Source: Pseudomonas sp. MIACH (lineage in GTDB: Bacteria > Pseudomonadota > Gammaproteobacteria > Pseudomonadales > Pseudomonadaceae). From it: a stretch of DNA of 64,000 bases. Position numbers and translations under genes: made by a program. The stretch lies in NCBI RefSeq assembly GCF_001269925.1, contig NZ_LHVO01000053.1:62001-126000 (forward strand), in the 5' to 3' direction. Within the stretch, counting starts at the first letter, position 1. Each line of letters begins with the position of its first letter. The notes under the pieces are model-generated. The model was given only the letters and a program-made list of their open reading frames with translations, did no database searches and was not told where the DNA came from. Below are positions 37,945-52,658 of this stretch, one piece after another.

Positions 37945-39132
37945 ATGGAAAACGTTCAGGCAAAACCCACCACCGCCGTATGGCTGATGATCAGCGTCGT
38001 GCTGGTCGCCCTTAACCTGCGGCCGTCAATGGCCGCCGTGGGGCCGTTGTTGTCGTCGATTCGCGGCGAGGTGCCGTTGAGTTTCAGCAGCGCGGCGTTG
38101 CTGACCATGTTGCCGGTCATGGCCATGGGCCTGGCGATGTTCTTTGGCATGGGCGTGGCCAAGCGTTTTGGCGAGCACCGCAGCATTTTGCTGTCACTGC
38201 TGGTGATTGGCGTGGCGACAGTGTCGCGGCTGTTCCTGGATTCGGCCCTGGAGTTGATCGTCAGCGCCATCGCCGCCGGTGTGGGTATCGCCATGATCCA
38301 GGCGCTGATGCCGGCCCTGATCAAGTCGCGGTTCAGTGACAACGTTTCGCTGTTCATGGGCCTCTACGTCACGGCCATCATGGGCGGCGCGGCGCTGGCG
38401 GCAGCGTTCTCGCCCTGGGTGCAGGTGCAGACCGGCAGTTGGCGCATCGGCCTGGCAATCTGGGCAGGCCTGGCGCTGCTGGCCCTGGTGTTCTGGTACG
38501 CCCAGCGCTCGGTATTGCCGCCCTTGCCCCAAGCCGCCGCCGGCCCTAAGGAGTCGTTTTTCGGCAACGGTCGCGCCTGGTTGCTGGCGATTTTTTTCGG
38601 CCTCGGTACTGCGTCCTACACCTGTGTACTCGCGTGGCTGGCGCCGTACTACGTGGAGCAAGGCTGGAGCGAACAGAATGCCGGTTTGTTGTTGGGTTTC
38701 CTGACCGCAATGGAGGTGGTGTCCGGCCTGGTCACGCCGGCCATCGCCAACCGTCGCCGGGATAAACGCGGGGTGGTGGCCGTGTTGCTGGTGCTGATCA
38801 TCCTTGGGTTCTGCGGCTTGATCCTCAGCCCGCAACACCTCAGCTTGCTGTGGCCGTGCCTGCTGGGCCTGGGTATCGGCGGGTTGTTCCCGATGAGCCT
38901 GATCCTGTCCCTCGACCACCTCGATAACCCGCGCCGCGCAGGGGCCCTGACCGCCTTTGTGCAGGGCATCGGCTACCTGATTGCCGGCCTGTCGCCGCTG
39001 ATCGCCGGGATGATCCGCGACCAACTGGGTAGCTTCGAATGGGCCTGGTGGTCCCTGACCGCGGTGATTGTGCTGATGCTGCTGATTGTCACGCGCTTCA
39101 ACCCAAGGCATTACGCGCAGCATATTCGCTGA
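37945..39132 (+). CDS. MFS transporter, CynX/NimT family
   Basis: A 395-residue 12-TMS carrier of the cyanate/nitroimidazole-type CP family. It has the N-terminal VVLVALNLRPSMAAVGPLLSSI and the central charged loop after about residue 190. ATG 37945 is preceded by AAGGCAGG; an in-frame ATG 21 bases upstream is less likely. No cyanase gene is present, so cyanate is not supported as a substrate. It lies 145 bp after the aldehyde dehydrogenase gene. Confidence 0.82.
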   Translation: MENVQAKPTTAVWLMISVVLVALNLRPSMAAVGPLLSSIRGEVPLSFSSAALLTMLPVMAMGLAMFFGMGVAKRFGEHRSILLSLLVIGVATVSRLFLDSALELIVSAIAAGVGIAMIQALMPALIKSRFSDNVSLFMGLYVTAIMGGAALAAAFSPWVQVQTGSWRIGLAIWAGLALLALVFWYAQRSVLPPLPQAAAGPKESFFGNGRAWLLAIFFGLGTASYTCVLAWLAPYYVEQGWSEQNAGLLLGFLTAMEVVSGLVTPAIANRRRDKRGVVAVLLVLIILGFCGLILSPQHLSLLWPCLLGLGIGGLFPMSLILSLDHLDNPRRAGALTAFVQGIGYLIAGLSPLIAGMIRDQLGSFEWAWWSLTAVIVLMLLIVTRFNPRHYAQHIR

Positions 39133-39269
39133 GGTCGCGTTACAAACAGTATTTGTCCCACACAAAACATAGAAGCGCCCTACAGCGCTTTCTATTGGCA
39201 CGCTCGTTCCGTTAAGCTTTCGCGCTGTCTTGTACTGACTTCGGTACATGGGGTTTACGGACGAAACCG

Positions 39270-40205
39270 ATGTTAAACAGTAACTTACTCAGAAAACTCG
39301 ATATGCAGGACTTGATGGTGTTTATCGCCGTCTATGACCAGAGCAGCGTGACCGAGGTGTCCGAAACCCTATTCGTCAGCCAGTCCACCGTGAGCTACAG
39401 CCTGAAGAAGCTGCGCACCAGTTTTGAAGACGAGCTGTTTATCAACACCCGCGCGGGCATGCGTCCTACGTACAAGGCCACCACCATGTACGCCCATGTG
39501 CAGAAGATCCTCGAAAGCATCAACCTGTGCCACGCCGGTGGCCAGGCCTTCGACCCCACGCAAAAGGCCGTGACGTTCAATGTGTGCGCGCCGGAGTACT
39601 TCGAACAACTGATCCTGCCGCGTCTGTTGAAGAATTTCGACCGGGCGGACCTGCCGGTAATCGTCAATGTGCAGAAGCTCGAAACCGAGATCCCCGCCGA
39701 CGACCTGCGCGAGGGCCGCCTGGACCTGGTGATTTGCTTCGGCCCGCACTTTCACCGTGCCCATAAAGACTTCAAGACCCAGATGCTGCTGGAGGACGAC
39801 CTGGTCTGCGTCTTCGATAAACGCTCGGCGCCCAGGGAGCCTGCCTTCAGCCTGCAATCGTTCGTCGAGCGACGCCACGTGTTCCCCACGCCATGGACGT
39901 CCGACACCAACATGATCGACGGCTGGCTGGCGCGCCAGTCCCACAAGCGCCAGGTGATCGCCCGGGCCAATAGCTACAGCGCAGCCCTGAAGATGATCAC
40001 CGGCACCGACTTCATCGTCACCCTGCCGCGCCGCGTGCAAAAACTGCTGGCGCCCGCGACGGTATTCGGCCACTGCGAGGCCCCCAACGGGTTGCCGGGG
40101 TTCACCCTGGATATGCAGTGGAATGAAAGCAGTGAACAGGACAGCGCCAATACCTGGTTTCGTGAGCAGGTGGTGAAGGTGTGTGCGGATCAGGGATTAC
40201 TCTAA
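39270..40205 (+). CDS. LysR-family regulator (NodD-like branch)
   Basis: A 311-residue LysR regulator with an N-terminal KLDMQDLMVFIAVYDQSSV and an EVSETLFVSQSTVSYSLKKL HTH. The GMRPTYKATTMY stretch is typical of NodD/NahR-like members. It follows the CynX-type transporter gene in the same direction; a regulatory link to it is possible but not shown. Confidence 0.85.
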   Translation: MLNSNLLRKLDMQDLMVFIAVYDQSSVTEVSETLFVSQSTVSYSLKKLRTSFEDELFINTRAGMRPTYKATTMYAHVQKILESINLCHAGGQAFDPTQKAVTFNVCAPEYFEQLILPRLLKNFDRADLPVIVNVQKLETEIPADDLREGRLDLVICFGPHFHRAHKDFKTQMLLEDDLVCVFDKRSAPREPAFSLQSFVERRHVFPTPWTSDTNMIDGWLARQSHKRQVIARANSYSAALKMITGTDFIVTLPRRVQKLLAPATVFGHCEAPNGLPGFTLDMQWNESSEQDSANTWFREQVVKVCADQGLL

Positions 40206-40271
40206 CGTCTGTGGCAAGGGAGGTCCCACTACCTCTTCGACGTAGCGCTGTCGCGCAGCAAACTGGGACAT

Positions 40272-40408
40272 CTGTGGCGAGCGGGCTTGTCCCGCGTTGG
40301 GGCGCGAAGCGCCCCTAATGAAGAAGAATGCGGTGTATCAGGCACTCCTCTGCGCCTGGTTCTGGGGCTGCTGCGCAGCCCAACGCGGGACAAGCCCGCT
40401 CGCCACAG
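40272..40408. repeat. Perfect 29-bp inverted repeat (second REP family)
   Basis: A 29-bp unit at 40272-40300 (beginning CTGTGGCGAGCGGGCTTG) recurs as an exact inverted copy at 40380-40408 around 79 bp. The spacer itself holds smaller hairpins (GGGGCGC...GCGCCCC). It fills most of the 290-bp gap between convergent genes, and nothing else is seen there. Confidence 0.8.
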
Positions 40409-40495
40409 GAGCGCGCTCGCCTGAAATGGCTTATGCGAGACTCAAGACTTTAGAGTGAAATTTTAAATTGCTCCCTCGCCACGATGGATGGCGTG

Positions 40496-40858
40496 TCAGC
40501 CAATCGCGACTTTGCTGTAGGAGTCGCGATCCATGTCGACCAGCAGGACGCTGAGCTGAACCTGTATATCCGCCGGCCAGTCGCCCAGGTCCTGCAATGC
40601 TGCCAGCAGGCTTTGCGACAATTGCTGCTTGACCTGCGGCGAACGCCCGCTGAGCAGCGACAGCTTCACCGCGATGAAACCGCGAGGGTTGAGGGAGGTG
40701 CCCACCTGAAAATGCTCAACCTTCACGGCGCGGCTTTTGATATCGAACTCGGAGCCGAATTGCCCGGACGCCATCAGCACGTTATTGAGCCGTAACAGGG
40801 TTTTCTCGACGGCCAGGTTTGTCAGGTTGGCGGTGTATTCCAGGTGCAGGTGTGGCAT
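40496..40858 (-). CDS. 5-carboxymethyl-2-hydroxymuconate isomerase
   Basis: A 120-residue tautomerase-fold protein matching CHMI (HpcD/HpaF) of the homoprotocatechuate meta-pathway. The catalytic Pro1 follows Met (MPHLHLEYTANL), with FDIKSRAVKVEHFQVG and FIAVKLSLLSGRSP typical of the family. ATG 40858 exposes this proline; upstream starts would bury it. No other hpa/hpc genes are present, so it is an orphan copy or acts on another enol acid. Confidence 0.8.
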   Translation of the reverse strand: MPHLHLEYTANLTNLAVEKTLLRLNNVLMASGQFGSEFDIKSRAVKVEHFQVGTSLNPRGFIAVKLSLLSGRSPQVKQQLSQSLLAALQDLGDWPADIQVQLSVLLVDMDRDSYSKVAIG

Positions 40859-40913
40859 GGATGACTCCGAGTCATTCGTAGGAAAGTTGTTAGATATAGC
40901 ACGGATAAAAGCC

Positions 40914-41837
40914 TCAGGCGTTGTTCGCCAGGCCCCGATCACTCATGAACGCTTCCAGCCGCGAACGCACCCAGCGTTCAGCCGGGTCGGTGTCCACATG
41001 GCTGAGCCAGACCATGGACAAATCCAACGTCGGCGTCTCGAACGGAAACGGCTCACAGAACAGGTTGCCCGACACCGCCATGGCTTCGGCGGTGTAGTCC
41101 GGCAGACTGGCGATCAGGTCGGTGCCGGCCAGCAACGCCGGCAACGCGCTGTATTGCGGCACCGACAACACCACATGGCGCTTGCGACCGATTTCCGCCA
41201 GCCACTCATCGGCAAACCCGGACACATTGGCGGTGTGGGACACCAGCACATGGGGGCGCGAGCAATATTCATCGAGGGTCAGCGGGGTGTCCGAGGCATC
41301 GGCGCGCAGCAGTCGCGGACGAATGTGGCGCAACAGCTTGCGCTTGGCATTGGCCGGCAGGCCACGGGTCTGGGTGATGCCAACCGTGATATCGCCGGAC
41401 GCCAGTAGATCAGGAATCCGCCAGTAGTCCACGTGCTGCACCACGAACACCACCTGCGGCGCTTCCTGGCGCAAGGCGCGCAGCAACGGTGGCAGCAGGC
41501 CGAACTCGACATCATCGGACAGGCCGATGCGAAAGGTCATGGTGCTGATGGACGGGTCGAAATCGTGGGTCAGGCTCAGGGCCGACGACAGTGAGTCCAG
41601 GGCCGGCGACAGGTGCTGGATGATTTCCTCGGCGCGCGCGGTGGGTTCCATGCGATGGCCGACGCGAATGAACAGTGGGTCATTGAACAAGGTGCGCAGG
41701 CGGTTGAGCGCCGAACTGATGGTCGGCTGGCCGAGAAACAGCTTCTCGGCCACCCGCGTCACATTGCGCTCGAGCATCAGTGCTTCGAAGACCACCATCA
41801 GGTTGATATCGGCCTTGCGTAATTCATTGCGATTCAT
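40914..41837 (-). CDS. LysR-family regulator (NodD/SyrM-like)
   Basis: A 307-residue LysR regulator with LRKADINLMVVFEALMLERNV and AEKLFLGQPTISSALNRL as the HTH. ATG 41837 follows GGGGCAGG; an in-frame start 21 bases upstream is an alternative. It lies between the CHMI gene and the last transporter of the BKACE operon, all on the minus strand. Either could be its target. Confidence 0.85.
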   Translation of the reverse strand: MNRNELRKADINLMVVFEALMLERNVTRVAEKLFLGQPTISSALNRLRTLFNDPLFIRVGHRMEPTARAEEIIQHLSPALDSLSSALSLTHDFDPSISTMTFRIGLSDDVEFGLLPPLLRALRQEAPQVVFVVQHVDYWRIPDLLASGDITVGITQTRGLPANAKRKLLRHIRPRLLRADASDTPLTLDEYCSRPHVLVSHTANVSGFADEWLAEIGRKRHVVLSVPQYSALPALLAGTDLIASLPDYTAEAMAVSGNLFCEPFPFETPTLDLSMVWLSHVDTDPAERWVRSRLEAFMSDRGLANNA

Positions 41838-41920
41838 CGGCGCCTGCCCCTTCCCCAAGACAAGCCGCAGTTTAGAAAGGCAATAGGGCCGCGTCTATGC
41901 CGGTGGACGCATGGGGTTGC

Positions 41921-43240
41921 CTATTTCGTCACCGGTTTCAGCACCCCGTGAGTGGCAGGTGCCGGCTCCTGGCCCTGACGCAAGCGCAACGCCGCCAGCG
42001 CGGCGACCACCAGCACCACGGTGATGACTTTCAAGCCGTTCATGGCATTGCCGGTGCTCATTTCAATTGCGCCCATCACCGAGGGGCCGACAAACCCACC
42101 CAACAGCCCGCAGGCATTGACGAAGCCCAAGCCACCCGCCAGCGCCACGCCTTTGAGGCGCGAGGCCGGGTACAGAAAAATGATCGACTGCACCACAAAG
42201 AACATCACCGCCGACAGGCAAAAGCCCAACAGGCTGAACACCGGCCCCGACACCGACGCAATGCCCAAGCCCAGCGCCATGGTCAATAACCCCGTGACCA
42301 ACAGTCGACGACAACGTCCGGGCGTGGTGGCAAAACGCGGGATCAGTACCGCACCGAGTGCCGCCGCGATCCACGGCAATGAGGTCAGCAAACCGACGCT
42401 CATGGTGCTCAGTTCGCCATACTTGCTGATGATGCTCGGCAGGAAAAAAATCACGGTGTAGACGGTGATCTGATGGCAAAAGTACACAAAGATCGCCAGC
42501 AGGATTTGCGGGGTCAGCCAGTTTTTCAACGCGTGACCGCCCTCCCCGGCACCTTCCTCGGTTTCCACAGCGATGCGCTGTTCGATGCCGCGTGCCTCTT
42601 CAGCCGTCAGCCACGGTGCCTTGCTCGGGCGGTCCGGCAACTTGCGCCATACCACCCAGGCAAACGCCACGGCCGGCAGGCCTTCGAGCAGGAACATCCA
42701 CTGCCAGCCGTGCCAGCCGAGCATACCGTCCATGCGCATCAAGGCCGCACCCACCGGGCCGCCGATGATGTTGGCAAAGCACACGCCAAGCAGGAAATAA
42801 CCGGTGGCCCGCGCCCGCTGTTCACGGTTGAACCAGTACGTCAGATAGAGCATGACGCCGGGAAACAAACCGGCCTCGGCGATGCCCAGCAGCAGGCGCA
42901 ATACGTAGAACGACGTCTCGCCCTGCACAAACGCCATGGCGGCCGAGATCAGGCCCCAGGTCACCATGATGCGGGCAATCCAGAACCGCGCGCCGACCTT
43001 ATGCATGATCAGGTTGCTGGGGATTTCCGACAGAGCATACGTGAGGAAAAACAGCCCGGCCCCCAGCCCGTAGGCCGCCGCGGAAATGCCCAGGTCGACG
43101 TCCAGGTGATGCTTGGCCAGGGCGATGTTGGTGCGGTCCAGAAAACTCAGGATGTAGGCGATGATCAGCAAGGGCATCAGCTTGGCGAACATCAGTGCGT
43201 TCAGCGCCTGCGGGTCGCGGGCCGAAGTGGCGGTAGTCAT
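41921..43240 (-). CDS. MFS transporter, anion:cation symporter (ACS) family
   Basis: A 439-residue 12-TMS carrier. The ACS signature is visible at the start (MPLLIIAYILSFLDRTNIALAKHH) and in RIMVTWGLISAAMAFVQG, matching carriers for organic anions such as tartrate, phthalate or sugar acids. It is the last gene of the GntR-SDR-BKACE-SMP30 operon and a candidate importer of its acidic substrate. A second carrier lies immediately upstream. Confidence 0.87.
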   Translation of the reverse strand: MTTATSARDPQALNALMFAKLMPLLIIAYILSFLDRTNIALAKHHLDVDLGISAAAYGLGAGLFFLTYALSEIPSNLIMHKVGARFWIARIMVTWGLISAAMAFVQGETSFYVLRLLLGIAEAGLFPGVMLYLTYWFNREQRARATGYFLLGVCFANIIGGPVGAALMRMDGMLGWHGWQWMFLLEGLPAVAFAWVVWRKLPDRPSKAPWLTAEEARGIEQRIAVETEEGAGEGGHALKNWLTPQILLAIFVYFCHQITVYTVIFFLPSIISKYGELSTMSVGLLTSLPWIAAALGAVLIPRFATTPGRCRRLLVTGLLTMALGLGIASVSGPVFSLLGFCLSAVMFFVVQSIIFLYPASRLKGVALAGGLGFVNACGLLGGFVGPSVMGAIEMSTGNAMNGLKVITVVLVVAALAALRLRQGQEPAPATHGVLKPVTK

Positions 43241-43296
43241 TGGGCAATTCCTCTTGGCGCCCCGCCAGCCTGGCTGGGGGGCGCATCACTGTTGTT

Positions 43297-44616
43297 CTAG
43301 GGTTCGAGTTGCACAACCAGGGCCTGCGGGCGATGGGAAAACAGTTGCAGCAGCGCGCCGCCCAGGGCGCAGCCGGCCATCACGAAGAAACACACGGTGT
43401 AGCCATGCAAGGTGGTCCAGCCGCCACCCATGGCAATCAGGCTGCCCATCAGTACCGGCGCCAGGCCGCCGCCGATAAACATCGCGGTGGTGATGATGCC
43501 GTTGGCGGTGGACGTCGCCGACGGCTCGGCCGAGTCGCAGGCCACCGCGTAGTAGATCGGCCACACCGCGTTGGCCACCAGGCCGAACAGCAGTTGCACG
43601 ACGATGATCAACGTCAGGGTATTGGCGAAGTAGAACGCGCCGACACTCGCCGCCATCCACAGCCCGCAGATGATCAGGGTGGTACGCCGGCCGATGATGT
43701 CCGACAGCGACGGCCACACCAATTGCCCGAGAATGCCGGTGAGGGTGAACACCACGCTCATCCCTGCCGACTCCGCCAGCGACAGCCCGGCGATGTTGTA
43801 GAGGTAGGCCGGCAACACGATGTTGACGCCCATGTACACCACTTGGGTGAGCATCGTATTGCCCGCCGTGAGGGCAATATTGCGGTTACGCAAGGTGGCG
43901 ACAAACGTGCGCCAGGCCTCGCCCTTCACGGTGCTGGCCGGGGCGTTGTCGGGTGGGGTCATGCCCTTGGCGGCGATGTCGACGTACAGCGCGGTAATGC
44001 GCTCGGCTGTGGAATAACGCGCCCAGAAGATCATCAGCGGCAGCGCCACCACGAAGGCGAAGAAGAACACGTAGCGCCAGTTGTCCTCGCCGAACACGGT
44101 GATGACAAAACTGGCGACGATGCCGCTGAGCATTGCGCCAATCGGGTAACCCGTGTGGTGCGCTCCCAAGGCAAACCCGCGACGCTCCACCGGCCACCAC
44201 TCGGCGGTGTTGCTCACGCCCACCGGCTCGCCCCAGCCGGCGCCGAGGTTGACGCCGACGCGCAGGGCGATAAAGGTCGCGAGGTTGCCGCTCAAGGCTT
44301 TGAAGCCGGACAGGAACGAGATCGCCGTGTAGCCGAGCACCAACGGCACCTGGAACCGTGCACGTTTCCAGCCGCCGTAGCGGTCGCTCCACATCGAACC
44401 GGGAATATCCAGCAGGGCCAGCGCGAGCATGACCACCGTGGCCACGGTGCCCCATTGGTCGGCGGATAAATCGAAATGCTTGGAGATGGTCGGCCCCAGG
44501 CGCAACACGATCTCACGGTCGTAGGCGTTGAGGATCCAGATCATCCAGCAGACCAGCAGCGATACCCAGGAATGCCGGTGAATGCTGCGCAGCGACGCTT
44601 TTTTTAAAGTTGCCAT
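43297..44616 (-). CDS. MFS transporter (second carrier of the operon)
   Basis: A 439-residue 12-TMS MFS protein of a different subfamily from its downstream neighbour. LLVCWMIWILNAYDREIVLRLGP lies at the first helix, and SLSDIIGRRTTLIICG marks the loop after helix 8. ATG 44616 is supported by GGAGAGG upstream. Placement after the lactonase gene with a 73-bp gap supports cotranscription. Having two unlike carriers suggests import of two forms of the substrate or an exchange. Confidence 0.85.
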   Translation of the reverse strand: MATLKKASLRSIHRHSWVSLLVCWMIWILNAYDREIVLRLGPTISKHFDLSADQWGTVATVVMLALALLDIPGSMWSDRYGGWKRARFQVPLVLGYTAISFLSGFKALSGNLATFIALRVGVNLGAGWGEPVGVSNTAEWWPVERRGFALGAHHTGYPIGAMLSGIVASFVITVFGEDNWRYVFFFAFVVALPLMIFWARYSTAERITALYVDIAAKGMTPPDNAPASTVKGEAWRTFVATLRNRNIALTAGNTMLTQVVYMGVNIVLPAYLYNIAGLSLAESAGMSVVFTLTGILGQLVWPSLSDIIGRRTTLIICGLWMAASVGAFYFANTLTLIIVVQLLFGLVANAVWPIYYAVACDSAEPSATSTANGIITTAMFIGGGLAPVLMGSLIAMGGGWTTLHGYTVCFFVMAGCALGGALLQLFSHRPQALVVQLEP

Positions 44617-44689
44617 GGGCCTCTCCAGGCGCGCGAGGGCGCGCACTGACACAAGGTTGCAAAGGAAGGTGCCTTGTTGAATCAACGCG

Positions 44690-45568
44690 CTAGCTGGCGA
44701 ATCGTCGCTCGGCTATTCCTTGCACGCCCAACCCGGTAATGGCGAACAGCGCGCCGCGCTGCTGGCCGTCGGCCGGAAAACGCGGCAGCGGCGGCTTGGC
44801 CATGGAGGTCACAAACAGGGTGTCCAGGTTTGGCCCGCCAAAGGTCAGGCTGGTGACCTTTTTTACCGGCATCTGGATGATGCGATCGACGTGGCCGTCC
44901 GGGGTGTAGCGCACCAGTTTCCCGGCGTAGACCAGCGCTTGCCACAGGCAACCTTCAGCGTCCACGGTGCAGCCGTCGGCCGCGCCGCCACTGGCGGTAT
45001 CGACCTTGGCGAAGGTGCGGCGGTTGCTCACGGCGCCGGTGGCGAGGTCGTAGTCATACGCCCAGATCTCGCCGGACCAGGTGTCGCAAAAGTAGAAGGT
45101 CTCCCCCGACGGGCTCCAGCACGGGCCGTTGGAGACGATGATGCCTTCGTCCAGGGTGTGCAGGCTCAAGTCGGCGTCGAGACGGTAGAGTTTGGCGCTG
45201 GCGCTGTCTTCCAGGGTGTCCATGGAGCCAAACACAAAGCGGCCCTGGCGGTCGACCTTGCCGTCGTTGAGGCGGTTGTTCGGCAGGTTCGGTTCCGGGT
45301 CCTGGATCAGCGCCAGTTCGCCGCTGGCGAGGTCCAGGGTGTGCACGCCGTTTTGCAGGGCGACGATGGCCGCCTCGCCGTTATGGCGCAGGGCCATGGA
45401 GCCGATCTTCTGGCCCACGTCCCAGGCACGTAGCTCGCGACCATCATCGGTGCAGCGCAGGATGCGGCCGTCGGCACTGTCGATCCAGTACAGCCGTTGT
45501 TGTTCGACGTCCCATACCGGGCCTTCGCCCAGGGTGGTCTTGACGTCCACAAGCACTTCGATACGCAT
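44690..45568 (-). CDS. SMP-30/gluconolactonase-like lactonase
   Basis: A 292-residue six-bladed beta-propeller hydrolase of the SMP-30/regucalcin family, which opens sugar-type lactones with a bound divalent metal. Metal-site motifs are TLGEGPVWD (Glu), LNDGKVDRQGRFVFGSMD (Asn), SNGPCWSPSG (Asn) and DTASGGAADGCTVDAEG (Asp). In this operon it probably hydrolyses a lactone before oxidation and BKACE cleavage. Confidence 0.87.
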   Translation of the reverse strand: MRIEVLVDVKTTLGEGPVWDVEQQRLYWIDSADGRILRCTDDGRELRAWDVGQKIGSMALRHNGEAAIVALQNGVHTLDLASGELALIQDPEPNLPNNRLNDGKVDRQGRFVFGSMDTLEDSASAKLYRLDADLSLHTLDEGIIVSNGPCWSPSGETFYFCDTWSGEIWAYDYDLATGAVSNRRTFAKVDTASGGAADGCTVDAEGCLWQALVYAGKLVRYTPDGHVDRIIQMPVKKVTSLTFGGPNLDTLFVTSMAKPPLPRFPADGQQRGALFAITGLGVQGIAERRFAS

Positions 45569-45632
45569 GGTGTGATCCCCTTATTGTTGTTGTGCGGGAT
45601 GCAGGCCGCGCGATTACGCGGCCTTTAGCTGG

Positions 45633-46565
45633 TTAGAAGTTGACGTGGTCACGCCCCTTGAGCCCGAGGATTTCCCGCGCTTCATCTGGCGTGGCGACAC
45701 GATGGCCGAGGGCTTCGATCACCGTACGAATGCGCCGCACCTGGTCGGCATTCGAGGCCGCCAGCTTGCCCGGGCCGTCCCACAATGAATCCTCCAGGCC
45801 GACACGGGCGTTACTGCCCATGGACAGGCCCATGGTCGCCAACGGAATTTGCCCACGCCCGGCACCGAGGATCGACCACACGTAGTCGTCGCCAAACAGG
45901 CGGTCGGCGGTACGACGCATGTGCGCCAGGTCTTCGGGGTGGCTGCCGATACCGCCACGCAGCCCAAACACTGACTGGATAAACAACGGCGGCTTGAGCA
46001 GGCCGCGTTCCAGGAAGTGCGCGGCGGTGTAGAGGTGGCCGATGTCGTAGCACTCGATTTCAAAGCGGGTGCGGTTCTCGGCGCAGGCATTGAGGATGTG
46101 GGTGATGTCGCGGAAGGTATTGCGGAAGATCCGGTCGTCACTCTCTTCCAGGTACGGACGCTCCCAGTCGTGCTTGAACTCGGTAAAGCGGTTAAGCATT
46201 TCGTACAGGCCGAAGTTCATCGAGCCCATGTTCAGCGAGGCCAGTTCCGGCTTGAACTGCATCACCGGTTGCAGGCGTTCTTCCACGCCCATCGTGGGTG
46301 CGCCGCCGGTGGTGATGTTGATCACCACGTCACTGGCGGCCTTGATGTGCGGCAGGAATTCGGCGAACAACGCCGGGTCCTGGCTGGGGCGGCCGTCAAT
46401 CGGGTCACGGGCATGCAGGTGAACAATGGCCGCGCCGGCTTCGGCGGCGCCAATGGCAGCGGCGGCAATTTCCTGGGCGGTGATAGGCAAATGCGGCGAC
46501 ATCGACGGCGTATGAATCGCACCGGTGACGGCGCAGGTAATAATGACGGGGCGTTTTTTGGACAT
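45633..46565 (-). CDS. Beta-keto acid cleavage enzyme (BKACE, DUF849 family)
   Basis: A 310-residue DUF849/BKACE enzyme. The family converts a beta-keto acid plus acetyl-CoA to acetoacetate and a new acyl-CoA. The zinc His pair is in AAIVHLHARDP, with NITTGGAPTMGVEERLQP and FEIECYDIGHLYTAAHF further on and LMGLSMG-like glycines near the end. The founding member cleaves 3-keto-5-aminohexanoate, but subfamilies have many substrates and this one cannot be fixed from sequence. It sits between the SDR and lactonase genes. Confidence 0.87.
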   Translation of the reverse strand: MSKKRPVIITCAVTGAIHTPSMSPHLPITAQEIAAAAIGAAEAGAAIVHLHARDPIDGRPSQDPALFAEFLPHIKAASDVVINITTGGAPTMGVEERLQPVMQFKPELASLNMGSMNFGLYEMLNRFTEFKHDWERPYLEESDDRIFRNTFRDITHILNACAENRTRFEIECYDIGHLYTAAHFLERGLLKPPLFIQSVFGLRGGIGSHPEDLAHMRRTADRLFGDDYVWSILGAGRGQIPLATMGLSMGSNARVGLEDSLWDGPGKLAASNADQVRRIRTVIEALGHRVATPDEAREILGLKGRDHVNF

Positions 46566-46632
46566 GACGATTCTCCGACTTTTATTCTTATGAAAAAAAT
46601 CCTGGGTCCAGCGCTGTGTGTTCTTCCGTGGC

Positions 46633-47421
46633 TTACAGGTACTCGACGTTTCCGTCGACGCTGATCGCTTGGCCGGTCACGTTGCGTGCGGCGGGCGAAC
46701 AGAGGAACAAGGCCATGGCCGCGACGTCTTCGGCGGTGACCATGCGCTTGAGGGAGATCTTGTTGAGGTATTCCTGGCGCATCTCGGCTTCGGGCACGCC
46801 GACCTGTTCGGCCCGGGCACGGATCACGCCGTCCATGCGCGGGCCTTCGACGATACCGGGCAGCAAGGCGTTGACGCGGATGTCGCTCTCACCCAGCTCC
46901 GACGCCAGGGATTTCATCAGGCCGACGATGGCCCACTTGGTCGCCGCATACGGCGTGCGCCAGGCGTAGCCGAGGCGTCCTGCCACCGAGGCGATATGCA
47001 GCAAGTGGCCGTGGGACGATTCTTTGAGCATCGGCACCGCGTGGTGGGCAAAGCGGTATTGCGCCGTCAGGTTGATATTGATGGTGGCTTGCCACTCGGC
47101 GTCGCTGATCGCATCGATACCACCGGTGGGCCCGGCGATCCCGGCGTTGTTGACCAGCACATCAAGGCCGCCGAAATGCTCGCGCTGTACCTTGAAGACC
47201 GCCTCGATCTGCGCGGCATCGCTGACGTCGGCACGGGTGGCGATGCTGCCCGGGTACTTGTCACGGAACGCCGCCAGGGCCGGTTCGCTCACATCACACA
47301 CATGCACCTGGGCGCCGGCTTCCAGATACGCCGCCGCCAACACCTCACCAATCCCGGCAGCCCCGCCGGAAATCAATACACGTAACCCAGGATAGGGCTG
47401 CAGCCGTTGTAGGACACTCAT
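46633..47421 (-). CDS. Short-chain dehydrogenase/reductase of the BKACE operon
   Basis: A 262-residue classical SDR with VLISGGAAGIGEVLA (cofactor glycines), LVNNAGIAGP, catalytic Ser in ASVAGRLG and the active-site YAATK. It is coupled by a four-base overlap (ATGA) to the GntR gene upstream and lies 67 bp before BKACE. It would supply the beta-keto acid from a hydroxy acid. It ends NVTGQAISVDGNVEYL, as usual for the family. Confidence 0.88.
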   Translation of the reverse strand: MSVLQRLQPYPGLRVLISGGAAGIGEVLAAAYLEAGAQVHVCDVSEPALAAFRDKYPGSIATRADVSDAAQIEAVFKVQREHFGGLDVLVNNAGIAGPTGGIDAISDAEWQATININLTAQYRFAHHAVPMLKESSHGHLLHIASVAGRLGYAWRTPYAATKWAIVGLMKSLASELGESDIRVNALLPGIVEGPRMDGVIRARAEQVGVPEAEMRQEYLNKISLKRMVTAEDVAAMALFLCSPAARNVTGQAISVDGNVEYL

Positions 47422-48140
47422 GCACGTTTACCTCCTGAAACAGACGACCGCGCACGGTCGCTCTTGACGAGCAGGCGCGCCAGGGAATCGGCGGCCTGCA
47501 TGATGTCATCGGTCACCGCCGCGCGGGCACCGGCGCCATCGCGGGCGGCCAGGGCTTCAACGATGCGCGTGTGCGCTTCCATCGAACGTTGCAGGTGAGC
47601 TTTATCCGGGGCAACCAAGGCAAAGCACGGGCCCATGTGCAGCCAGAAGTTTTCCACCGCAGCCATGGTCAATTCGGCCTGGGCCACCGCGTAGATGCGC
47701 CGGTGGAAAGCGAAGTTGGTCCACAGGTAGCGGGACACGTCGACTTCATCAGCGGCATGTTGCATCTGTTGGCACAGGTCGGTGATTTCGTCGAGGTCGG
47801 TTTTTTGCAGGAGCTGCACGGCTTTTTCCGCCAGTAACCCTTCGAGGGCGACCCGCGCATCACGAATTTCGCGCAGGCGTTCGACGGTCATCAGGCGTAC
47901 GCGCAGACGGGAGGTCTCGGTGACTTCAAAGGCGTTTTCGGCGCTGAGGCGTTGCAGCGCTTCACGCACCGGCATGGGGCTGGAGCCGAGCGCTTCGGCC
48001 AGGCCACGGATGGTGAGTTTCTGGCCGGGCTGGAAACGGCCACTCATCAAGGCTTCGCGGATCTGGCGATAGACCTGGTCTTGCAAGGTATCGCGGGAGA
48101 CCTGGCGCAGGGTGGGCAGGAGCAGCGGACCATCTGTCAT
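47418..48140 (-). CDS. GntR-family (FadR/FCD) regulator of the BKACE operon
   Basis: A 240-residue GntR regulator. The winged HTH includes LQDQVYRQIREALMSGRFQPG and TIRGLAEALGSSPMPVREALQRL. The C-terminal all-helical FCD domain (from about residue 85) has the metal-binding residues D...R and H typical of acid-sensing members. It is the first gene of the operon, with a 10-bp perfect palindrome 39 bp upstream of its start, so autoregulated repression is likely. Confidence 0.88.
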   Translation of the reverse strand: MTDGPLLLPTLRQVSRDTLQDQVYRQIREALMSGRFQPGQKLTIRGLAEALGSSPMPVREALQRLSAENAFEVTETSRLRVRLMTVERLREIRDARVALEGLLAEKAVQLLQKTDLDEITDLCQQMQHAADEVDVSRYLWTNFAFHRRIYAVAQAELTMAAVENFWLHMGPCFALVAPDKAHLQRSMEAHTRIVEALAARDGAGARAAVTDDIMQAADSLARLLVKSDRARSSVSGGKRA

Positions 48141-48178
48141 GAGTCAAAGCCTGTGTTGTCGTTCTTATGCCTCCAATA

Positions 48179-48188
48179 TGTGATCACA
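48179..48188. promoter_or_regulatory. Candidate GntR operator
   Basis: TGTGATCACA is a perfect palindrome just upstream of the GntR gene, in an AT-rich stretch (AATATGTGATCACAAATC). Size and position fit a self-repressing GntR/FCD regulator. Binding is inferred only. Confidence 0.45.
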
Positions 48189-48217
48189 AATCAAATATGT
48201 CAAATAATTTCCCGGCG

Positions 48218-48256
48218 AAAAAAAGGGAGCTGCCGAATCACCTATCGGCAACTCCC
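48218..48256 (-). terminator. Rho-independent terminator
   Basis: On the minus strand GGGAGTTGCCGA pairs with TCGGCAGCTCCC with one mismatch across an 8-base loop, followed by seven U residues. It ends transcription of the small gene at 48297-48443 before the GntR promoter. Confidence 0.8.
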
Positions 48257-48296
48257 ATTGGGGTCGCGCCTTGGCCAAACTTACCCTTGGGATGAA

Positions 48297-48443
48297 TCAG
48301 GGCTGCAAAGGGCGCTCCTGATCCCGCTCGGAAAGCTCCGTACCATCATCCGGATGTTTCCAGGTCTGGGGTTTTTCCTCTTCACGCTGCCGAGGGGGTT
48401 GTTCACGCTCCGGCTCATCCTGGCGCTGCTGTTCGTTGCCCAT
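48297..48443 (-). CDS. Small highly charged protein
   Basis: A 48-residue frame with a strong ribosome-binding site (GGGAGGTGACC just before ATG) and its own terminator 41 bp downstream. The product is very hydrophilic, rich in Glu, Gln, Arg and Pro (EREQPPRQREEEKP), with one Trp and no hydrophobic segment, so it is likely disordered. The combined start and stop signals argue that it is real. No function is known to me. Confidence 0.65.
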   Translation of the reverse strand: MGNEQQRQDEPEREQPPRQREEEKPQTWKHPDDGTELSERDQERPLQP

Positions 48444-48640
48444 GGTCACCTCCCATCCGTAAGAATTGGTCACACCTTTGCAGCATAGAACAGCACAGGA
48501 CTGTTAAGCGGCGCTCCGATTGATAGCTAACGCACATCAATCAATCTAAATTTGTCACTTTTCATTTCTAAATGTGTCAGCCACTATTCCAGGTCTTAAG
48601 CGAAACAAGCACGTTAAAAGAACGCTGGAGACACAAAACC

Positions 48641-49945
48641 ATGACTAGCCCTTCCCGGCCCGACTCTGCCAGCTCGAAAGTAGGCGCTGTATTGCGCGTT
48701 ACTTCGGGCAACTTCCTCGAACAGTTCGACTTCTTTCTGTTCGGCTTCTACGCCACCTATATTGCTGCCGCGTTCTTCCCCGCCGCTAATGAGTTTGCGT
48801 CATTAATGATGACCTTCGCCGTGTTCGGTGCGGGGTTCCTGATGCGGCCACTGGGCGCGATCATCCTGGGTGCTTACATCGATGACGTCGGTCGCCGCAA
48901 AGGGCTGATCGTGACGCTGTCGATCATGGCCAGCGGCACGCTGTTGATCGTGCTGGTGCCGGGTTATCACACCATTGGCCTGTGGGCGCCGCTGCTGGTG
49001 CTGCTGGGCCGCCTGTTGCAAGGCTTCTCGGCCGGCGCGGAACTGGGCGGTGTGTCGGTGTACCTGTCTGAAATGGCCACGCCAGGGCGCAAGGGTTTCT
49101 ACACCAGTTGGCAATCGGGCAGCCAACAGATCTCCATCGTAGTCGCCGCCGCGCTGGGCTATGGCTTGAACGTGTGGATGGAGCCGTCCGTGGTGGCCGA
49201 CTGGGGCTGGCGTATTCCGTTCGCCGTCGGTTGCGTGATCATCCCGTTCATCTTTGTGCTGCGTCGCAACCTGCAGGAAACCGAAGAGTTCGCCAACCGC
49301 AAGCATCGCCCGACCATGCGCGAAGTGCTGGCCACATTGGCGAAGAACTGGACCATGGTCATCGGCGGCATGCTGATGGTCGCGATGACCACCACCGCGT
49401 TCTACCTGATCACCGTGTACGCGCCGACGTTCGGCAAGACCGTGCTGCAACTGAGCACCTCCGACGCCCTGCTGGTGACCTTGCTGGTGGCGGTGTCGAA
49501 CTTTGTCTGGCTGCCGATCGGCGGCACCCTGAGCGACCGCTTCGGCCGCAAGCCGGTACTGATCGCCATGACCGCGCTGACGGTGCTCACGGCTTATCCG
49601 GCGCTGTCCTACGTGGTGAATGCACCCAGCTTCGCCCATATGCTGGAAACCCTGCTGTGGTTCTCGTTCCTGTACGGCATGTACAACGGTGCAATGATCC
49701 CGGCCCTCACCGAGATCATGCCAGTGGAAGTGCGCGTAGCGGGTTTCTCCCTGGCCTATAGCCTGGCAACCGCGATCTTCGGTGGTTTCACCCCGGCGAT
49801 CTCCACCTGGTTCATCCACATCACCGAAGACAAGGCGTCGCCGGCCTATTGGATGATGTTCGCAGCGCTGTGCGCGCTGTGTTCGACCCTGGCGCTGTAT
49901 CGTCGCGCCAACGCACGCGGGCAGGTCATGCAGGGGGCGGCGTGA
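48641..49945 (+). CDS. MFS tricarboxylate/H+ symporter (CitA/TcuC-like)
   Basis: A 434-residue MHS-family symporter. The start [21 protein letters not shown] and the [17 protein letters not shown] loop match citrate and tricarballylate carriers such as CitA and Tcu[22 protein letters not shown] is also typical. ATG 48641 begins the family core. It overlaps the next gene by one base (TGATG), so transport and periplasmic conversion are coupled. The substrate is a tricarboxylate, likely citrate or aconitate. Confidence 0.85.
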
Positions 49946-50703
49946 TGAAGTCTCTGCTCAAGACCCTGACGGCCCTGGCCCTCGGCGGACTGGCGCTGAC
50001 GGCCCAGGCCGAACAGCTCAAGGTGATGACCTCGGGTGGCTTCACTGCCGCTTATAAACTGCTGGGCCCGCAATACGCCCAGCACAGCGGCGACACCCTC
50101 GACACGATCCTCGGCCCGTCCATGGGCAAAGCGCCGGAAGCGATCCCCAACCGCCTGGCCCGAGGTGAGCACGCCGACGTGGTGATCATGGTCGGCTACG
50201 CCCTGGATGACTTGATCAAACAAGGCAAGGTCGACCCGGCGTCCCGCGTAGAACTGGCCGACTCACGTATCGGTATGGTGGTGAAACAAGGTGCGGCCAA
50301 ACCCGCGATCGGTACCGATGCCGAACTCAAGGCAGTGCTGAGCCAAGCCAAGTCCGTGGCGTATTCGGACAGCGCCAGCGGTGTGTATGTCGAGAAAGAG
50401 CTGTTCAAGAAGCTCGGCATGCCCGCCAAAGGCACCATGATCGAACGCCTGCCGGTGGCCGAACAGGTTGCCAAGGGCGATTACGAAGTGGGTTTGCAGC
50501 AGGTGGCGGAGTTGTTGCCGGTGCCGGGTGTGACCTACGTCGGCAAGATCCCGGAGGATGTGCAATCGGTGACGCGCTTTGCGGCGGGCATTCCGGTCAA
50601 CGCCGAACACCCTGAGCAGGCCAAGGCACTGTTGCAGTTCCTGGCCTCGCCCCAGGCACAACCGGTGGTGCAATCCACCGGCCTGGACTCAGTGTCACGC
50701 TGA
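49945..50703 (+). CDS. Periplasmic binding-protein-fold protein, probable aconitate isomerase
   Basis: A 252-residue protein with a signal peptide ([22 protein letters not shown]) and a ModA-like fold (VMTSGGFTAAYKLLGPQY, SVAYSDSASGVYVEKELF). No ABC permease or ATPase gene is present. Aconitate isomerase from a Pseudomonas isolate has this fold, and the partner here is a tricarboxylate carrier. Periplasmic trans- to cis-aconitate conversion followed by uptake is therefore the best hypothesis. A binding protein for the carrier is the alternative. Confidence 0.6.
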   Translation: MKSLLKTLTALALGGLALTAQAEQLKVMTSGGFTAAYKLLGPQYAQHSGDTLDTILGPSMGKAPEAIPNRLARGEHADVVIMVGYALDDLIKQGKVDPASRVELADSRIGMVVKQGAAKPAIGTDAELKAVLSQAKSVAYSDSASGVYVEKELFKKLGMPAKGTMIERLPVAEQVAKGDYEVGLQQVAELLPVPGVTYVGKIPEDVQSVTRFAAGIPVNAEHPEQAKALLQFLASPQAQPVVQSTGLDSVSR

Positions 50704-51597
50704 CCGAAACGGCATCTCCCGCACCAACCGCTCCAACTCCAGCGCCGCCGGCGGCAATGTCCGCCCGCGGCGCTTGATCAAGCCCACATTGCGCATCACC
50801 TGCGGCTCCACCAACGGCACACTGACCAAAATCGGGTGCTCCGAGGCGGGCATCGCAATCGACGGCACCATCGCCACCCCCAACCCTGCCTCCACCAGCC
50901 CGATCATGGTGGTCACATGGTGCGTCTCGCAGATACTCGGCTTTTTCACCCGCACCCCGCGCAAGGCCTGATCCAGCAGGAAGCGGTTGCCCGAAGTCTT
51001 GTCCACAGTGATGTATTCGTACTCATAGGCTTCGGCCCAGGTCACGGCGTCACGCTGGGCCAGTGGATGGTCACGGCGACAAGCCAGCACATAGCGCTCT
51101 TGCAGCAGCAACTCGAACTCCATCTCATCGGCCAGGCTGCCACTGAAGCTCACGCCGAAATCTGCCTCACCACTTTCCACCGCGTTACACACTTCACCGG
51201 CACTGGCATCCAGCACCCGTAGGCGAATCTTCGGATAGAGCTTGTGGAATTCGGAGATCACGTGGGGCATGAAGTAGTACGCGGTAGACGGCACGCAGGC
51301 GATGGTCACGTTACCCATGCGCGTGGACGCGACATTGCTGATGCCCATCAGGGCGACGTCGAGGTCGTCGAGTATGCGTTCGACCTGCGGCAGGAAGGCG
51401 CGGCCGACCATGGTCAGGCTGACGCGGCGGGTGGTGCGTTCGAACAGCTTTACGTCGAGGGCGGACTCAAGTTTTTCGATGCGCCGGCTGAGGGCCGGTT
51501 GCGAGATCCGGATGGCCTCGGCGGCGCCGCGAAAACTGCCCTTGTCTACCACGGCGCGAAAGGCTTGGAGGTCGTTGAGGTCGAAGTTGATGATCAC
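50695..51597 (-). CDS. LysR-family regulator of the tricarboxylate genes (TcuR-like)
   Basis: A 300-residue LysR regulator: FDLNDLQAFRAVVDKGSFRG at the N-terminus, then AEAIRISQPALSRRIEKLE as the HTH. It converges on the isomerase gene with a nine-base overlap of coding ends. In tricarballylate loci a LysR gene (tcuR) accompanies the transporter, so control of the adjacent carrier-isomerase pair is likely. Confidence 0.85.
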   Translation of the reverse strand: MIINFDLNDLQAFRAVVDKGSFRGAAEAIRISQPALSRRIEKLESALDVKLFERTTRRVSLTMVGRAFLPQVERILDDLDVALMGISNVASTRMGNVTIACVPSTAYYFMPHVISEFHKLYPKIRLRVLDASAGEVCNAVESGEADFGVSFSGSLADEMEFELLLQERYVLACRRDHPLAQRDAVTWAEAYEYEYITVDKTSGNRFLLDQALRGVRVKKPSICETHHVTTMIGLVEAGLGVAMVPSIAMPASEHPILVSVPLVEPQVMRNVGLIKRRGRTLPPAALELERLVREMPFRSA

Positions 51598-51806
51598 AAG
51601 GGCTGGCCAGTTGAGTCGGGATGGGCGGCATTATCGTCTGGCTGCCGAGTGCACGCTAATTAAACCCTGCCGCCAAACCCTACACAGGCCTGAAGCGCCC
51701 GCGTGATGCGGCTTGCGGCGATTGAACGAAAACCATCGAAACAATTCAAAACACTTCAATTTAGTATAAATTGCATGCCATTCCCAAGGCATTCAAGGAG
51801 ATCCCC

Positions 51807-52658
51807 GTGGCAACTCTGCAAGCTCATACCATCCAGGCACTGCACACCCATCGCCCCACCCTGCTTACCGAATGGGTTGCCAGCCTTGAGGCTTCGGGGG
51901 CCACGCGCAACGTCAAGGCCGAAGACACCCGGCAGCAGGCCAACGACTTCCTCAACCTGCTGATCGCGGCACTGCAGCAAGGCGGTTCGCAACAGGTCAA
52001 CCATGAAAACTGGGCAGAAACCCGGGTCTTCCTGGAAAAGCTCTCCCACAGCCGCGCCCTGATCGGCCAGGACTCGCAACAAACCGCCAGCTTTATCTTC
52101 GCCCTCAAGGGCCCGCTGTTCGCCCTGCTGCAGCGTGAATACGCCGAGCAACCGACACAGATGGCCGAACAGCTGTGGGAAATCTCCGAACTACTCGACG
52201 CGCTGGGCATGCACACCATCCGTACTTTCCAGAAATCCCGTGAGTCGGTGATCAAGCGCCAGCAGGAAGAGTTACTGGAACTGTCCACCCCCGTGGTCAA
52301 GCTGTGGGACGGCGTGCTGGCCCTGCCGATGATCGGCACCCTGGATTCGCAACGCACCCAGGTGGTCATGGAATCGCTGTTGCAGCGCATCGTCGACACC
52401 GGCTCGGAGATCGCCATCATCGACATCACCGGCGTGCCGACCGTGGACACCCTGGTCGCGCAGCACCTGTTGAAAACCGTCACCGCCATCCGCCTGATGG
52501 GCGCCGACTGCATCATCAGCGGCGTGCGTCCGCAAATCGCCCAGACCATCGTGCACCTGGGTCTCGACCTGCAAGGCGTGGTCACCAAGGCCAACCTGGC
52601 GGACGCCTTGGCGCTGGCCCTTAAACGCCTGGGCGTCACCATCAGCAAGGCTGTTTAA
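51807..52658 (+). CDS. rsbR: RsbR-type STAS protein (stressosome sensor)
   Basis: A 283-residue RsbR homologue with an N-terminal helical sensory domain (about residues 1-155) and a C-terminal STAS domain (from about residue 165). The STAS part keeps the RsbR signature IIDITGVPTVDT and GVRPQIAQTIVHLGLD, where B. subtilis RsbR is phosphorylated on Thr by RsbT. The start is the GTG at 51807, preceded by AAGGAG; the in-frame TTG upstream lacks one. It is the first gene of a six-gene operon. Confidence 0.85.
   Translation: MATLQAHTIQALHTHRPTLLTEWVASLEASGATRNVKAEDTRQQANDFLNLLIAALQQGGSQQVNHENWAETRVFLEKLSHSRALIGQDSQQTASFIFALKGPLFALLQREYAEQPTQMAEQLWEISELLDALGMHTIRTFQKSRESVIKRQQEELLELSTPVVKLWDGVLALPMIGTLDSQRTQVVMESLLQRIVDTGSEIAIIDITGVPTVDTLVAQHLLKTVTAIRLMGADCIISGVRPQIAQTIVHLGLDLQGVVTKANLADALALALKRLGVTISKAV

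Follow-up and report, generated by a model that had tools for sequence, protein, structure and literature searches.

The sugar of DNA yields 2-deoxyribonate upon oxidation, and a type of operon for the catabolism of this compound was described in 2019 (Price et al., PMC6365646). In Pseudomonas simiae WCS417, the putative operon consists of a gntR gene (PS417_07240) and genes for a short-chain dehydrogenase/reductase (SDR; PS417_07245), a beta-keto acid cleavage enzyme (BKACE; PS417_07250), a lactonase (PS417_07255) and two carriers of the major facilitator superfamily (MFS; PS417_07260 and PS417_07265). On deoxyribonate, the genes of this operon are both induced and required, a glycerate kinase is required too, and mutants in the SDR and BKACE genes lose growth on the compound; the purified SDR oxidizes deoxyribonate to ketodeoxyribonate in vitro, with the position of the keto group left undetermined in that work. 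The route put forward leads to acetoacetate and D-glyceryl-CoA, the latter being converted further to glycerate and 2-phosphoglycerate; for the cleavage step by BKACE the authors state that there is no direct evidence (PMC6365646). Here we describe an operon of this make-up in a 64,000-nucleotide stretch of the genome of Pseudomonas sp. MIACH (contig NZ_LHVO01000053.1, positions 62,001-126,000), hereafter the window.

A probable 2-deoxyribonate operon in Pseudomonas sp. MIACH

The window encodes, on the minus strand and in a single direction, six open reading frames (ORFs) in the order gntR-SDR-BKACE-lactonase-MFS_A-MFS_B, where MFS_A and MFS_B denote the two carriers (ORF list and Pfam search; Table 1). 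These genes had been named in an earlier reading of the sequence (the original prediction), and their existence, positions and families were borne out by the ORF list and the Pfam search. The gntR and SDR genes overlap by 4 bases and, because the gaps between the other genes are only 56-70 bases, the six genes likely form one transcript. For MFS_A, the ATG at 44619 was taken as the start; the listed ORF reaches 44685 from a TTG.

With PS417_07240-07265 of P. simiae WCS417, the window shares the gene set, the gene order and the place of the operator; the partner genes are present in the MIACH genome, and the protein identities to the corresponding locus of P. simiae CCUG 50988 are given in Table 1. 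Judging from these comparisons, the operon very probably belongs to the P. simiae type and serves the catabolism of 2-deoxy-D-ribonate and 2-deoxyribonolactone, and the MIACH strain would use it as P. simiae does. Operons of this kind are already known, from 2019 and from the same genus. The original prediction spoke of an unknown substrate and, naming only the carnitine and lysine routes, implied that this set of genes belongs to none of the known BKACE routes; both statements are superseded by the deoxyribonate route, for which the same set has been published (PMC6365646). Its outline, from lactone import through hydrolysis and oxidation to a beta-keto acid to BKACE cleavage yielding acetoacetate, matches the proposal made in PMC6365646 for the same genes.

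Some points weigh against this assignment. The identities were measured against P. simiae CCUG 50988, and the published experiments were done in another strain, WCS417; the NCBIfam name of the BKACE, '3,5-dioxohexanoate:acetyl-CoA acetone transferase', denotes a different substrate; and deoC and a sugar kinase are also encoded in the MIACH genome. Because of the presence of the latter two genes, the operon is not the sole possible deoxyribose route in this genome. In this respect the MIACH genome differs from that of P. simiae CCUG 50988, where deoC has no match: its deoC is accompanied by a PfkB-type kinase (340 bits on the ribokinase model, cut-off 300) and a FucP-like carrier, with a DeoR-like regulator nearby (judged by reading the ORF). 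The MIACH genome may thus hold two deoxyribose routes, like the Paraburkholderia of PMC6365646.

That the arrangement is no product of chance is seen in 80 fetched loci with a BKACE gene, in which the block was scored with 60% identity as the lower limit. All six genes in this order are found in 13 of these loci, a block without lactonase and MFS_A in 12, and one without MFS_B in 8; in one locus (L036) the block is cut by the contig end after the lactonase, and the other 46 have no such block at this threshold. The closest loci in the named collection all belong to Pseudomonas (P. yamanorum and others), with BKACE identities of 97-99%.

Table 1. Features of the operon in the window and positions of a second BKACE type in other genomes. 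Identities are to the P. simiae CCUG 50988 locus (L010).
Feature	Position	Strand	Basis and remarks
GntR/FCD regulator	47418..48140	-	Pfam GntR + FCD; 98%; orthologue of PS417_07240
SDR, probable deoxyribonate dehydrogenase	46633..47421	-	Pfam adh_short_C2; 98%; orthologue of PS417_07245
BKACE, probable ketodeoxyribonate cleavage enzyme	45633..46565	-	PF05853, 370 bits (cut-off 24.8); 97%; orthologue of PS417_07250
SMP-30/SGL gluconolactonase-type lactonase	44690..45568	-	PF08450, 274 bits; 94%; orthologue of PS417_07255
MFS_A, carrier paired with the lactonase; possible deoxyribonolactone importer	43297..44619	-	MFS_1; 99%; presence agrees with that of the lactonase in 31/31 genomes
MFS_B, DgoT-like carrier; possible deoxyribonate importer	41921..43240	-	MFS_1; 96%; DgoT is the nearest solved structure
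Predicted operator palindrome GTGATCAC	48180..48187	.	-47 to -40 of the gntR start codon (48140); upstream of gntR in 34/34 related loci
Sigma-70-like promoter TTGACA-17-CATATT	48175..48203	-	operator in spacer; 0.4 expected in shuffles
Second BKACE type (other genomes)	G278:C1:3378711, G063:C1:3129617, G248:C34:49780, G102:C53:107662, G276:C1:2471927		

Promoter and predicted operator

An operator GTGATCAC at positions -47 to -40 of gntR is predicted in PMC6365646, and the copy in the window stands exactly there. It is the place of the octamer and not its mere presence that carries weight, because two copies occur in the 64 kb against 1.15 expected by chance. In the window and in 32 of the 34 related loci used for the operator count (L003-L036), the octamer lies within the 17-base spacer of a sigma-70-like promoter and touches the first base of the -10 box; the exceptions are L034, with a spacer of 13 bases, and L036, without a match to the -35 box. 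A terminator-like hairpin (48256-48225) precedes the promoter. Such a place next to the -10 box suits a repressor, and we infer that GntR represses the operon. The motif is likened in PMC6365646 to the sites of the activator AkgR; the same paper lists gntR among the genes that matter in P. simiae, though mutants in this first gene of the operon may be polar.

BKACE subgroup and alternative substrates

In the least improbable of the alternatives, which we nevertheless consider distinctly unlikely, the operon would serve mainly another lactone and 3-hydroxy acid (for instance a 2-deoxyaldonate with six carbons, or the pair of 3,4-dihydroxybutyrate and its lactone), with deoxyribonate as one accepted substrate. 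The natural substrate is argued and not measured in PMC6365646, where a 61% identical BKACE is reported to act on several beta-keto acids in vitro, and NCBIfam has 3,5-dioxohexanoate in the name of the enzyme. However, the near-identical P. simiae genes are both needed for and induced on deoxyribonate, the additional need for glycerate kinase fits a five-carbon substrate, and five bacteria that were tested failed to grow on 2-deoxyglucose (PMC6365646); furthermore, the MIACH genome has the orthologous SdaR-glycerate kinase pair. The substrate cannot be read from the NCBIfam name, because the P. simiae orthologue scores alike on the underlying model (NF053538; 540 bits, against 539 bits for the window BKACE, both above the cut-off of 430); as the orthologue receives the same name, it was dropped as evidence on the substrate.

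The MIACH genome encodes a second BKACE (L095:5236-6123) of the same family, 41% identical to that of the operon in the alignment. It is of the dehydrocarnitine type and adjoins an L-carnitine dehydrogenase gene (NF005471, 662 bits, cut-off 414), with a solute-binding protein and AraC-type regulators as neighbours (judged by reading the ORFs); within the six-gene operon itself, the ORF list and the Pfam search gave no carnitine dehydrogenase gene. The operon BKACE stays below the cut-offs of the models for 3-keto-5-aminohexanoate (NF052387; 246 bits, cut-off 382) and 3-oxoadipate (NF053568; 177 bits, cut-off 350). In the alignment it has Ile17 where 2y7d has a Glu, which we take to be the amine-binding residue of KCE. 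Glu171 and Arg254 (E171 and R254) are found at the same positions as in BKACE15, where they are discussed as catalytic (PMC11961710). That the operon is one for 3-keto-5-aminohexanoate (lysine) or dehydrocarnitine, as the pipeline label '3-keto-5-aminohexanoate cleavage protein' given to relatives would have it, can be dismissed as barely credible in view of the NF052387 score and Ile17 for the lysine type and of the separate gene beside L-carnitine dehydrogenase for the carnitine type. The placement in either subgroup that the original prediction had named as its refutation was thus not found.

Proposed route and partner genes

In the route that we propose, the two MFS carriers would import 2-deoxyribonate and its lactone, and the SMP-30 lactonase would open the lactone to 2-deoxyribonate. 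The SDR would oxidize this acid to a keto acid, presumably 2-deoxy-3-ketoribonate, and the BKACE would move the acetyl end onto acetyl-CoA, a cleavage that would give acetoacetate and D-glyceryl-CoA. The latter would be hydrolysed to D-glycerate by a further enzyme, and a glycerate kinase encoded elsewhere in the genome would produce 2-phosphoglycerate; GntR would control the operon from GTGATCAC.

The partner genes are all present in the MIACH genome, namely those for SdaR and glycerate kinase (95% and 89% identical, respectively, to the P. simiae genome orthologues) and those for the iorB-like subunit of a deoxyribose dehydrogenase and a cytochrome c (92% each to the P. simiae genome copies). 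The iorB-like subunit carries an RRRFLA motif, and its gene is preceded by an iorA-like frame and followed by the cytochrome c gene.

Shared presence and loss of the lactonase and MFS_A

In a survey of 298 genomes of the genus, a BKACE match at an E-value of 1e-80 was obtained in 53 genomes, with an identity of at least 87% in 31, which are not independent of each other. Lactonase and MFS_A are both present next to BKACE in the same 24 of these 31 genomes and both absent from the remaining 7, all of which have MFS_B next to BKACE. A Fisher value for this 24/0/0/7 split takes no account of relatedness and is left out of the argument. The presence of MFS_B varies separately from this pair: 18 genomes possess all three genes and 6 possess lactonase and MFS_A without MFS_B. 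Counted as present in this survey were MFS_A genes split over two frames (G213) or with one stop each (G180 and G193), and an MFS_B matched from residue 105 only (G133). At the thresholds used, MFS_A without lactonase was found in none of the 298 genomes; a lactonase relative of 66-67% identity without MFS_A was found in three.

The named loci together with the window make up 35 rows, of which 14 are full, 12 have MFS_B only, 8 have lactonase and MFS_A only (L035, with MFS_A split over two frames, was counted as having it) and one is cut. On a tree of GntR, SDR and BKACE of these rows, built by a quick method with SH-aLRT support only and leaving 15 of the 32 inner branches open, 8 changes are counted for the lactonase, 8 for MFS_A and 3 for MFS_B; L036, whose contig ends after the lactonase, was left out of these counts. 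On the supported (starred) branches, lactonase and MFS_A go in the same direction in all five contrasts (sign p 0.0625). Loss of the lactonase alone, of MFS_A alone, or of MFS_A together with MFS_B was seen in none of the 34 informative rows.

The junctions retain footprints of the missing genes. In P. costantinii (L013), some 34-39 lactonase codons are followed by the last 65 bases of MFS_A; about 11 lactonase codons in L012 and two to three in L014 run in frame into MFS_B; and L015 has a longer, worn lactonase remnant. Because the break points differ among the loci, the pattern is most simply explained by several separate deletions of lactonase and MFS_A that always spared MFS_B, although later wear of one older deletion may account for single cases.

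A link of the pair to the periplasmic deoxyribose dehydrogenase received no support: iorB (at least 84% identity) is present in 16 of the 24 genomes with the lactonase versus 2 of the 7 without it (Fisher p 0.10, uncorrected for relatedness). The deoC gene is found in 18 of the 31 genomes. In a class-wide search of 369 genomes, the lactonase was found in one genome besides that of MIACH. Caballeronia insecticola (L115) has GntR-SDR-BKACE-MFS_B, with MFS_B 67% identical, and no match to lactonase or MFS_A. To the published operon, this comparison adds evidence suggesting that MFS_A works as a pair with the lactonase.

What the two carriers may import

The reason for the presence of two carriers was left open by Price et al. 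(PMC6365646). No published answer was found in the library searched, the locus tags of the P. simiae and Klebsiella carriers being matched only in that paper. In the galactonate carrier DgoT, D46 and E133 are needed for proton-coupled uptake and R47 meets the substrate carboxyl (PMC6532931, PMC11649914). In our alignments, D46, R47 and R126 of DgoT are kept in all 27 MFS_B and all 22 MFS_A proteins, and the E133 column holds Glu in 27/27 MFS_B and Ala in 22/22 MFS_A; with only about 20% identity between the two carriers, this column is less sure for MFS_A. These residues fit an anion-proton symporter in the case of MFS_B and another coupling in that of MFS_A. Because MFS_B scores 269 bits on the D-galactonate transporter model TIGR00893, below the cut-off of 395, it is called here DgoT-like and not a member of that family.

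Data on Klebsiella bear on the same question. The gene set and order of a Klebsiella cluster (CP125156, L101) are those given by the K. michiganensis locus tags in PMC6365646, and the lactonase gene sits between the carriers, with the MFS_B orthologue (55%) before it and the MFS_A orthologue (68%) after it. PLSDB lists this record, CP125156.1, a circular one of 5.4 Mb, among the Klebsiella plasmids; judging from its size, it is probably a chromosome. By gene order, RS23715 would be MFS_B, RS23720 the lactonase and RS23725 MFS_A. In K. michiganensis M5al on deoxyribonate, the fitness values are -4.0 for RS23715, -1.3 and -1.1 for RS23720, and -1.4 for RS23725 (PMC6365646). Thus, again by gene order, the phenotype of MFS_A would be lactonase-like and MFS_B would do most of the transport on the acid; polarity is named in PMC6365646 as a possible cause of the lactonase phenotype.

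One explanation of the two carriers, which we give an even chance, is that both carry the acid, with two affinities or as a complex, and that MFS_A is lost with the lactonase merely through adjacency. It is in agreement with the importance of both carriers on deoxyribonate in P. simiae (PMC6365646) and with the conservation in MFS_A of R47, the substrate-carboxyl contact of DgoT, both of which speak against a strict division between lactone and acid; moreover, one deletion can take adjacent genes, as the L013 footprint illustrates, and the contrasts on supported branches are only five. What this explanation leaves aside is the lack, in 34 rows, of any loss of lactonase alone, MFS_A alone or MFS_A with MFS_B, even though MFS_A adjoins both, and the situation in Klebsiella, where the lactonase separates the carriers and the mild, lactonase-like phenotype falls, by gene order, to MFS_A. 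The other explanation, tentative and in our estimate somewhat short of an even chance, is that MFS_A imports the uncharged 2-deoxyribonolactone for the cytoplasmic lactonase, the two genes making up a separable lactone module, and that MFS_B takes up the deoxyribonate anion together with protons, in the manner of DgoT. The difference between the carriers may be blurred by the conversion of lactone and acid into each other in solution (PMC6365646).

Related clusters and a candidate glyceryl-CoA hydrolase

The Klebsiella cluster represents the acyl-CoA version of deoxyribonate oxidation: its lactonase, MFS_A and MFS_B are 71%, 68% and 55% identical to those of the window, whereas SDR and BKACE are replaced by a CoA synthetase, a CoA transferase, a FabG-type dehydrogenase and a thiolase. 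In rhizobial clusters (Agrobacterium L103, Rhizobium L105 and Phyllobacterium L102), BKACE (60-65%), SDR (50-51%) and lactonase (70-73%) are retained, a sugar-type ABC transporter replaces the MFS pair, and there is an extra 3-hydroxyacyl-CoA dehydrogenase.

Two of the rhizobial clusters also carry a glycerate kinase gene followed by a gene of the 3-hydroxyisobutyryl-CoA hydrolase (HIBCH) family (L103:13708-14790 on Agrobacterium pQ15_94_2 and L105:19793-20857 on Rhizobium pRlX3); the L103 protein scores 426 bits on NF004127 (cut-off 274). In PMC9007349 the enzyme that hydrolyses glyceryl-CoA still figures as unknown, and a redundant one is suspected in PMC6365646. The rhizobial HIBCH-family protein is a candidate for this enzyme on the strength of its gene neighbourhood. 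The gene is present in 2 of the 16 loci L101-L116, and these two, as close relatives, count as one observation; in a search of 104 loci, the sole match apart from L103 itself was one of 33% in L067. The MIACH and P. simiae genomes each encode two full-length HIBCH-family members, which would fit the suspected redundancy.

Between the lactonase part and the glycerate kinase gene, the Rhizobium cluster has genes for LarA (nickel-dependent racemase family), LarC, an adenine nucleotide alpha hydrolase and LarB (L105:14419-18456), which may supply a racemase acting on the glycerate formed at the end of the route. The remaining plasmid loci are partly different BKACE operons. In Croceicoccus marinus pCME4A9I (L110:9992-17264), a BKACE gene is followed by a run of genes for coenzyme F420 synthesis and F420-type oxidoreductases. 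In five genomes (Table 1), a second BKACE type (72-73%) is directly followed by an MFS_B relative (61-62%), with no adjoining lactonase; one of these genomes (G248) carries it besides the full operon.

Surroundings of the operon

Ahead of the terminator-like hairpin lies a strongly charged ORF of 48 codons (48297-48443, minus strand), with 73-85% identity in 12 loci (L003-L013 and L017). Further on, a divergent pair (48572-50703, plus strand) encodes a TcuC-like carrier (757 bits on the tricarballylate/proton symporter model, cut-off 445) and a ModA-like binding protein (SBP_bac_11), with a LysR gene (50695-51597) next in line; in 12 loci the operon has these neighbours as well. On the other side, a 124-amino acid protein of the 5-carboxymethyl-2-hydroxymuconate isomerase family (PF02962, 56 bits; 40496-40870, minus strand) is encoded alone beside a LysR gene (40914-41858). 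No Rfam match was obtained in 39000-52000 and no tRNA in the 64-kb window.

Implications

As the pathway is known in the same genus, the discovery value of the operon itself is small. The annotation names '3-keto-5-aminohexanoate cleavage protein' and '3,5-dioxohexanoate:acetyl-CoA acetone transferase', all the same, hide a route for an oxidized DNA sugar, and the rhizobial HIBCH gene beside glycerate kinase offers a candidate for the missing glyceryl-CoA hydrolase. The pairing of carrier and lactonase bears on the question that the original authors left open and provides a modest new hypothesis on the carriers: a lactone module, if real, would explain why the operon has two of them. The lactone, a possible product of oxidative DNA damage (PMC6365646), would then be a food of its own, kept by some Pseudomonas and dropped several times by others.

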